This document shows, piece by piece, positions 6,973 through 24,800 of a stretch of DNA of 32,558 nucleotides. The stretch's first letter is position 1; each line of letters opens with the position of its first letter. The notes beneath the pieces were generated by a model that was not told the DNA's origin, made no database searches, and saw nothing but the letters and a program-made list of their open reading frames with translations. Source of the DNA: Thermoanaerobaculia bacterium (GTDB lineage: Bacteria > Acidobacteriota > Thermoanaerobaculia > Multivoradales > JAHEKO01); contig CALZJC010000001.1 in the NCBI GenBank assembly GCA_945787525.1, positions 1-32,558 of the forward strand, given 5' to 3'. Made by a program: the position numbers and the translations under genes.

Positions 6973-7629
6973 GTGGCGGCGTTTCTCAAGCACCTGTTCT
7001 TCTGGCTGGTGGTGCGGCCGATCGTGCTGGTGCTGCTGGGCCTCAACGTGCGCCGGCGCGAGCTCCTGCCCACCGACGGCCCGGCGATCCTGGTGGCCAA
7101 TCACAACAGCCACCTCGACACGCTGGTCCTGATGGCGCTGCTGCCGGCCGGGCTGCTGCCGCGCGTGCGTCCGGTGGCGGCGGCCGACTACTTCCTGCGC
7201 AATCGCCTGATGGCCTGGTTCTCGCTGCGGGTCATCGGCATCCTGCCGGTGAGCCGCCAGGGCAGAAAGCCGGGCACCGACCCCCTGGCGGAGGCGGACG
7301 CCGCTCTGGACCGGCGGGAAGTGGTTATCCTCTTCCCCGAGGGCACCCGCGGCGAGCCCGAGTCGCTGGCCCATCTCAAGAGCGGCGTGGCGCACCTGGC
7401 GTTGGCGCATCCCGAAGCGCCACTGCTGCCGGTCTTCCTGCACGGACTGGGCAAGTCTCTGCCCAAGGGCGCCTTCCTGCCGGTGCCGTTCTTCTGCGAC
7501 GTGTTCGTCGGCGAGCCGCTCTACGGTGGTGAGGAGCGTTGGGCAGGCGACGCCCATCGGCTGCTCGATGGCCTGAACGGCAGCCTCAAGGAGCTGGCCT
7601 CCGAAGGGAGCTTTCCCGAGTGGACTTAG
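6973..7629 (+). CDS. 1-acyl-sn-glycerol-3-phosphate acyltransferase (PlsC family)
   Basis: ILVANHNSHLDTLVL (HX4D) and ILFPEGTRG motifs; GTG start. Confidence 0.9.
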   Translation: MAAFLKHLFFWLVVRPIVLVLLGLNVRRRELLPTDGPAILVANHNSHLDTLVLMALLPAGLLPRVRPVAAADYFLRNRLMAWFSLRVIGILPVSRQGRKPGTDPLAEADAALDRREVVILFPEGTRGEPESLAHLKSGVAHLALAHPEAPLLPVFLHGLGKSLPKGAFLPVPFFCDVFVGEPLYGGEERWAGDAHRLLDGLNGSLKELASEGSFPEWT

Positions 7630-8198
7630 GCTCCGGGGACCGGCGCCGGGGAATCGAAGCGCTGGTGTTGCCGATCGTGGCCCTCTGGGGCTTTGCCGAG
7701 GCGACGCTGTTCTTCGTCGTGCCGGACGTGGCGATCAGCTTTCTGGCGCTGCGTTGCCGCAAGATCGCTCTGTTCGCCTGCCTTTGGGCCTTCGCGGGAG
7801 CGCTCGCCGGCGGCGCGGTGATGTACTCCTGGGGCCGCGGGGCTTCGGCCATGGCCGAGGCGGTCCTGGAGAAGGTGCCGGGAGTGAATCGAGCGATGGT
7901 CGTGCGCGTTCGCGGCGAGCTCGAGGAGACGGGCGCCGGGGCGGTGGCCCTGGGGCCGCTCAGGACCACTCCGTACAAGATCTATGCAGTCGAGGCGGGA
8001 TCGCTGGGTACCTCGCCGCTGGCGGTACTCGCGGCCAGTGTACCGAGCCGCCTCCTCAGGTTTCTGCTGACCGCGCTGATCATCAACTGGCTGGCGCGAC
8101 ACCCCTTGAAACGATGGTCGCTCGATCGCCAGCGGTTGGCGGTGGGCCTTTTCTGGGTGGCGATCTACGTCGTCTTGACGCTGCGCACTCCGAGCTAG
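7620..8198 (+). CDS. small DedA/YqaA (VTT-like) membrane protein
   Basis: GTG at 7620 overlaps the PlsC stop; WGFAEATLFFVVPDVAISFLALR..., GALAGGAVMYSWGRG; hydrophobic. Its TAG stop is part of the 8.2-kb repeat. Confidence 0.65.
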   Translation: MDLGSGDRRRGIEALVLPIVALWGFAEATLFFVVPDVAISFLALRCRKIALFACLWAFAGALAGGAVMYSWGRGASAMAEAVLEKVPGVNRAMVVRVRGELEETGAGAVALGPLRTTPYKIYAVEAGSLGTSPLAVLAASVPSRLLRFLLTALIINWLARHPLKRWSLDRQRLAVGLFWVAIYVVLTLRTPS

Positions 8199-8377
8199 CC
8201 TGACCTTCTCACCAATCGTCTACGAAACGCCGCATCTTCCTGAATCTGCAGCGTTACGCTCTTGTCGGGCATCCTCAGCGTGCTTCGAGCACGCTTGCGG
8301 TGCCCTCGGTCGCAAGCCTCGCATCTTCAGGCAGCTGCGACGTTTCGCTACAACGATCGGTGAGAAGGTCAGGCTAG
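8195..8377. repeat. 183-bp inverted-repeat (REP/BIME- or MITE-like) element, double unit
   Basis: Ends CTAGCCTGACCTTCTCACCAATCGTCTACGAAACGCCGC and GCGACGTTTCGCTACAACGATCGGTGAGAAGGTCAGGCTAG are reverse complements with few mismatches; internal hairpins AGCGTGCT-TCG-AGCACGCT and CTTGCG...CGCAAG. Confidence 0.88.
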
Positions 8378-17372: not shown

Positions 17373-17494
17373 CGAGCCAACTCCTGGTCTGCGAGTTTGA
17401 ACCGACCGGACAGCGGTCCGCCGCGCCACGACGCCCGCCGATCGGGCTAGCCTTGTTGCACGTTCTCAACTACGCAGAGCGGCGGCGGAAGTTC

Positions 17495-21212: not shown

Positions 21213-21307
21213 CTAGCCTGACGCTGAGGATGCCCGACTAGAGCGTAACGCAGCAGATTCAGGCACCTACGGCGTTTCGTAGAGGATTGGTGAGAAGGTC
21301 AGGCTAG
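21213..21307. repeat. 95-bp single-unit copy of the CTAGCCTGAC inverted-repeat element
   Basis: By hand count 79/86 identical to the reverse complement of 8195..8280; terminal CTAGCCTGAC / GTCAGGCTAG. Confidence 0.9.
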
Positions 21308-21310
21308 GGG

Positions 21311-21649
21311 CTAGAGCCCGAGCACCAGTCGTACGCCGTCCTCGACGCGGGCCAGGAGCCGTCCGCTGATTCGTCCGGCCTTCTCCAGCAACTGCTTCTT
21401 GTCGGCCGTCGCGACCTGCGACACGTTGACCACCGAGGGCTTGCCGAGGCCGGTCTCCTGCGGCCCGCAGCGTACGTTCCCGGGTGCCTCGGCCAGACGT
21501 AGGTTGGAAGTGATCGCGGCAACCACGACGGTGCGGAGCCGGCTCTCGTTGAACGTGTTCGTCTGCAGGATCAACACGGGACGGCGGTAGCCGGGCCGCG
21601 AGCCCGCCGGCGAGCCGAGCGCTGCCCACCAGATTTCGCCCCGGCGCAC
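21311..21649 (-). CDS. mazF: MazF/PemK-family endoribonuclease toxin
   Basis: MRRGEIWWAALGSPAGSRPGYRRPVLILQTNTFNESRLRTVVVAAITSN...SVVNVSQVATADK. Confidence 0.92.
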   Translation of the reverse strand: MRRGEIWWAALGSPAGSRPGYRRPVLILQTNTFNESRLRTVVVAAITSNLRLAEAPGNVRCGPQETGLGKPSVVNVSQVATADKKQLLEKAGRISGRLLARVEDGVRLVLGL

Positions 21650-23927: not shown

Positions 23928-24800
23928 ATGAGCGACTCGGCGCGGCCCTCGCAAAGCGAGGATCAGCTGATGTCGAGCCAGAAGGAATCCGGTCGAGCAG
24001 AGATCAACGGCAACCAGATCCACTACGAAGAGTACGGTGAGGGAACGCCCCTGGTGTTCATCCACGGCGCCTTCAATACCTGTGACATGTGGCGGCCTCA
24101 GATCGAGCGCCTCTCGCGGCGCAACCGCTTGATCGTCTATGACCTGCCGGGCCACGGTCGGTCCGGACCGACTCGCGGACGCTTCTCGATGGACAACCTG
24201 GCGCGCGACCTCGACGCGCTGCTCGGCCACCTCGAGGTGGCTTCGGCGGTGGTCTGCGGCTTCTCGCTCGGTGGCTGCGTGGCGCAGGAGTACGCCTGGC
24301 GCCATCCAGCCAAGCTGCGAGGTCTGATCGTTTCGGATTCGATAGGCGGCTCACTGGCCGGTCCCGCGCGAGGCCTGGCCCGCAGTGCGGTCCGACTCTC
24401 GACGCCTTTCGTCAGCCGGCGGCGGATGCTCGGCCTGGCCGGCTTTGCGACCAGCGCCATGCAGAAGGACGTTCAGGAGTACTTCATGAGGGTCGCCGGA
24501 GAGAACCTGAAGAGGATGAGCAAGCGCGAGATCCTCGAAATCGCGACGTCACTCATCGACTTCCGAGGGCGCGATCTGTCGCGCTTCGACAAGCCGGCCC
24601 TGATCATCGCCGGCGCTCGCGAGCCGCGCAGGATCCTGAAGGAGGCCCGCCGGCTCGTGGCGAGAATTCCGGCCGCCACTCTCGAGGTGATCGAGGACGC
24701 GCAGCATGGACCGAACCGTGAGAACCCCGCGGCTTTCAACGCGGCGATCGGGCGGCTGCTCGAGCGGGCCGAAGCGGTAGATTTGCCCGCCGCGTCCTAG
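23928..24800 (+). CDS. alpha/beta hydrolase
   Basis: PLVFIHGAFNTCDMWRPQIERLSRRNRLIVYDLPGHGRSG; GFSLGG nucleophile elbow; AQHGPNRENP catalytic His. Its TAG stop lies in the 24.8-kb repeat. Confidence 0.93.
   Translation: MSDSARPSQSEDQLMSSQKESGRAEINGNQIHYEEYGEGTPLVFIHGAFNTCDMWRPQIERLSRRNRLIVYDLPGHGRSGPTRGRFSMDNLARDLDALLGHLEVASAVVCGFSLGGCVAQEYAWRHPAKLRGLIVSDSIGGSLAGPARGLARSAVRLSTPFVSRRRMLGLAGFATSAMQKDVQEYFMRVAGENLKRMSKREILEIATSLIDFRGRDLSRFDKPALIIAGAREPRRILKEARRLVARIPAATLEVIEDAQHGPNRENPAAFNAAIGRLLERAEAVDLPAAS

Follow-up and report, generated by a model that had tools for sequence, protein, structure and literature searches.

A CTAG-targeting foldback MITE with IS1380-type ends, recurrently placed at TAG stop codons in Thermoanaerobaculia and probably moved by IS1380-family transposons

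Overview

The window analyzed here, the 32,558-nucleotide contig C1 of a 550-contig, 4.43-Mb Thermoanaerobaculia MAG (completeness 89%), carries at 8195–8377 a full copy of a short palindromic element that, with high probability, is a CTAG-targeting foldback MITE with IS1380-type ends, moved in trans by a putative IS1380-family transposase. On this reading a repeat can reach high copy number and leave genes unbroken, the target word being a stop codon on both strands and its use therefore silent for both neighbors; the reading also connects IS1380 transposons, and a strict CTAG target, with a family of MITEs.

Architecture of the element

The sequence at 8195–8377 is a near-palindrome of 183 bp in which two similar inverted arms flank a small hairpin. 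Its termini (8195–8219 and 8353–8377) form a 25-nt inverted repeat with 96% complementarity, and one arm, 8195–8281, recurs in inverted orientation at 21221–21307 with 92% identity over 87 nt. The element proper is best written as the 175 bp at 8199–8373 (plus strand), a full two-arm, non-autonomous copy devoid of any ORF, with the outer CTAGs at 8195–8198 and 8374–8377 representing the duplicated target, an assignment that draws on the comparison of filled and empty sites at other loci. The left terminal inverted repeat, CCTGACCTTCTCACC, has an IS1380-type tip and occupies 8199–8213 on the plus strand; its counterpart on the right lies at 8359–8373 on the minus strand, and between them stands the central hairpin GCGTGC-TTCGA-GCACGC (8278–8294, plus strand), the stem of which (helix 4) covaries across the order. 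The TAG at 8196–8198 is the stop codon of ORF 7539–8198.

Two further copies lie in the window, and both had been listed as related copies in an earlier, sequence-only reading of this DNA. That at 21213–21307 (minus strand) is indeed a copy, yet not a full one: it is internally deleted and consists of a 10-bp CTAGCCTGAC tip joined to one half-unit, with CTAG at both ends. The other, at 24797 to about 24821 (plus strand), is a truncated copy reduced to a lone end, and its TAG at 24798–24800 is the stop codon of ORF 23928–24800. Possible relics that had been proposed at 17447 and 27801 find no support on comparison with the end motif, sharing only CTAG and carrying at least six mismatches, which is the background of the window. 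Of the two kinds that the sequence-only reading had named as context, MITEs are supported and RAYT-mobilized REP/BIME elements are not; that reading missed both the CTAG target and the overlap with the stop codons of ORFs 7539–8198 and 23928–24800. A MazF-like toxin ORF, recognized by eye and preceded by a probable antitoxin ORF, occupies 21311–21649 on the minus strand; the CTAG at which it ends lies within a few bases of the copy at 21213–21307.

Copy number and distribution

Genome-wide copy counts are lower bounds, taken among the matches listed. In the genome of the window the 183-bp query found at least 41 direct-orientation matches of 100–183 bp (40 of 212 candidates were scored), and at least 28 copies are near full length, with 85–95% identity to the window copy. 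The end motif CTAGCCTGACNTTCTCACC, allowing up to two mismatches, occurs 119 + 108 = 227 times in this MAG, compared with 0 + 1 for a reversed-pattern control, from which we infer roughly 110 elements, complete or truncated. The 96% complementary ends, the near-full-length copies and the 227 end motifs against a single control match confirm that the inverted-repeat family first proposed from 8195–8377 is real and far above chance.

Among 198 genomes searched, 28 match the 183-bp sequence, the genome of the window included, and these comprise 15 of the 17 other members of the same family; weaker matches extend to several other families within the order, and in two genomes that are more distant the match covers the central hairpin only. 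Between genera, copies are only about 70–82% identical to the window copy, as opposed to the 85–95% seen within the genome, a difference to be expected of lineage-specific amplification. The earlier description of a lineage-specific, non-autonomous palindromic family holds. The exact end motif, among named genomes, belongs to Acidobacteriota MAGs, one of them labeled Thermoanaerobaculia. A phylum-wide pattern scan returned mostly single, chance-level matches outside the class, where the distant, low-GC genome G297 provides one clear homolog. An Rfam covariance-model search of the element matched no family, and the element was likewise unmatched in the plasmid collection searched.

Many of the copies in these genomes are truncated. 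Contigs of related MAGs (L088–L181, many of them contig starts) often end about 122–123 bp from an element end, so the repeat interrupts assembly at a constant position within its own sequence. Elsewhere in the phylum, a several-copy repeat at L085 and L086 (G180 and G152) has nothing but the motif of the central hairpin, TCCTCAGCGTAC..GTACGCTTGCGG, in common with the element and is possibly a distant relative.

CTAG as target and stop codon

CTAG is the target of the element and is duplicated on insertion. At a convergent GDH/AmrS-like gene pair in the genome of the window (L258), the element sits exactly at the GDH stop, and GDH orthologs align with the query through its last residue; in another genus (G006), where the same pair is likewise convergent, the CTAG of the GDH stop is empty. 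Within genus g5, the filled site of G015 reads GACACGG TTAG-element-CTAG GCA, and G004 and two loci of G010 have a single CTAG at the point that is filled in G015. Adjoining tandem copies have one CTAG in common. Of 83 full copies, 58 have CTAG as the outer tetramer on either side, and most of the others deviate at one end only. The empty sites, the shared tandem CTAG and the outer tetramers together favor writing the mobile unit as 175 bp plus a 4-bp duplicated target. In strict terms, a duplicated CTAG and a single CTAG carried by the element yield the identical product; the CTAG shared by tandem copies fits duplication. At the GDH stop codon in G012 (L261), further CTAGs come after CTAGCCCGACC, possibly the relic of an independent insertion at that site.

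Placement at TAG stop codons is recurrent. From the genomes, 289 non-redundant ends with an outer flank of at least 300 bp were extracted, and for each it was asked which coding frame, if any, enters the end. A coding frame reaches 125 of these ends, and the TAG of the end is the in-frame stop in 103 of the 125, the other frames accounting for 13 and 9. Six full copies each close both genes of a convergent pair at once, and LpxC proteins end at similar length, their native protein ends retained. At loci of the window's genome, gene stops fall at 27 of 63 element CTAGs as against 29 of 142 other CTAGs, a per-strand comparison that is rough because the loci were chosen for carrying elements. Since CTAG holds TAG on both strands, neither protein is altered when the element enters the stop codon of one gene or a CTAG common to two convergent genes. 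The word is rarer than expected in the window (24 seen against 58 expected), and with the word this scarce, selection against other insertions would concentrate the surviving copies at gene ends.

Foldback structure and its maintenance

In an alignment of 26 diverse copies, both sides of the foldback have changed in 17 of 38 pairs, and two-sided compensatory cells number 72, compared with 19.8 in shuffled and 5–12 in slid controls. This excess indicates that the foldback structure is maintained. Maintenance is by selection or by palindrome correction, and the data fit either; the conserved, covarying interior may help the ends to pair or may simply be kept by correction of the palindrome.

We regard as rather doubtful, if conceivable, a composite history in which an IS1380-borne, CTAG-targeting element had its folded interior selected across the order and is now a mobile 3'-end module, supplying an intact stop and a structured bidirectional 3' end. 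Unlikely, too, is that the sequence is first of all a functional structured element at gene ends (a bidirectional terminator, an mRNA 3'-end stabilizer or an RNA), its mobility being secondary or extinct. Such a role would suit a covarying foldback conserved across the order and in one distant genome, as well as copies that sit between convergent genes, but palindrome correction could equally produce the covariation, copy positions vary among genomes as the empty sites attest, many copies are truncated, and the tips match those of an IS.

Relationship to IS1380 transposons

Comparison of the ends points to IS1380-family transposons as the probable movers of the element, those of the same order bearing 19-bp tips nearly identical to its own. 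A 1.75-kb IS1380-family IS in G042 has CTAGCCCGGATTTCTCACC at its left, and its right end is the same to within two bases; similar IS1380-family transposon ends occur in G028, G035, G030 and G043, and in G099, from another order of the class. NCBIfam model NF033539 names as IS1380 the three end-bearing transposases tested and one transposase of G015. Scored against the MITE motif, eight IS sides reach 15–17 of 19 and exceed every shuffle, compared with 1 of 35 Y1 sides, and a MITE end in G020 equals the right IS end of G028 at 19 of 19 positions, both genomes belonging to family f4.

The element and the IS1380 ISs (NF033539/PF13701) are thus alike in their outer 19 bp, CTAG CCYG... TTCTCACC, CTAG included; they differ in that the element is without a transposase gene, spans 175 bp rather than about 1.75 kb and has an unrelated interior. 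As similarity stops beyond these roughly 19 bp, simple internal deletion of such IS copies does not account for the MITE. With no PF13701 transposase between its ends, the element is not itself an IS1380 insertion sequence. It is short, non-coding and multicopy, with terminal inverted repeats, a target-site duplication and ends common to an autonomous IS, all features of a MITE. The sequence-only reading had named MITEs among its candidates, and the inverted ends, CTAG duplication and IS-type tips bear this out; it had also held that repeats matching a known IS end would refute its proposal, and the ends do match IS1380.

The main gap in this explanation is the partner transposon. A PF13701 gene is absent from the window's own MAG (89% complete) and was not found in most element-carrying f1 genomes, where the IS1380 partner is unassembled, lost or diverged; G015 has an f1 IS1380 copy with readable ends, the tips of which are more divergent. 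Among the lone ends examined for long autonomous copies sharing the element interior, there were none. A divergent IS1380-like group (about 530 aa; G001, G009, G010 and G046) was considered as a source and rejected, such ends being absent from it.

Two other mobilizers have been weighed against an IS1380-family enzyme. A different DDE family that duplicates CTAG or YTAR, for example the IS5 group, is a very improbable source: the bacterial MITE MITEPsy1 of Pseudomonas syringae enters CTAG or YTAA with a 4-nt duplication (PMC3189936) and so offers a precedent for CTAG as a MITE target, but its ends are unrelated, it is not known to show stop-codon placement or a conserved fold, and of the two transposase families compared for ends, IS1380 and Y1, it is IS1380 transposons within the order that match the 19-bp ends of our element. 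The other candidate, a family of REP/BIME type with a RAYT (Y1/HUH) transposase as its mover, recognizing a CTAG-footed hairpin, is largely refuted and retains only the slimmest chance, for despite a palindromic, intergenic, multicopy element with double-unit and tandem copies at gene 3' ends, Y1 genes that are common among relatives, and the precedent of GTAG REPs reported to supply TAG stops to flanking ORFs (PMC3733652), the element measures 183 bp rather than 20–40 bp, carries a CTAG rather than a GTAG (or CGTC) tag, duplicates its target and has IS1380-type tips, the MAG of the window yielded no Y1_Tnp, and at about 50 Y1 loci in related genomes there are no linked ends.

Under IS1380-mediated mobilization, the transposase acting in trans would move the element by cut-and-paste, and such a reaction at CTAG would resemble that of piggyBac at TTAA. 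The eukaryotic piggyBac targets TTAA and excises seamlessly (PMC7351741), and IS1380 serves as its outgroup (PMC10140906, PMC10813416). Our element and piggyBac, itself a distant relative of IS1380 (PMC7351741, PMC10140906), are alike in a strict, palindromic 4-nt target that is duplicated; they differ in host domain and target word, and a likeness in mechanism is putative. The findings suggest that the bacterial IS1380 family, too, uses a palindromic tetranucleotide in the manner of piggyBac, and the filled and empty sites described above are suited to testing this. For IS1247, a member of that family, a 5-bp duplication is on record (PMC3281130), and the strict CTAG may therefore be the trait of a subgroup. 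The literature searched, which covers few subscription journals, held no description of an IS1380-type MITE. Finally, an IS1380-family transposon in G112 (L294, approximately 1266–2964) has a perfect inverted repeat of 35 bp in which GTTAACC recurs, and TTAA lies directly outside CCCGGATTATTCAC, like the TTAA target of piggyBac.
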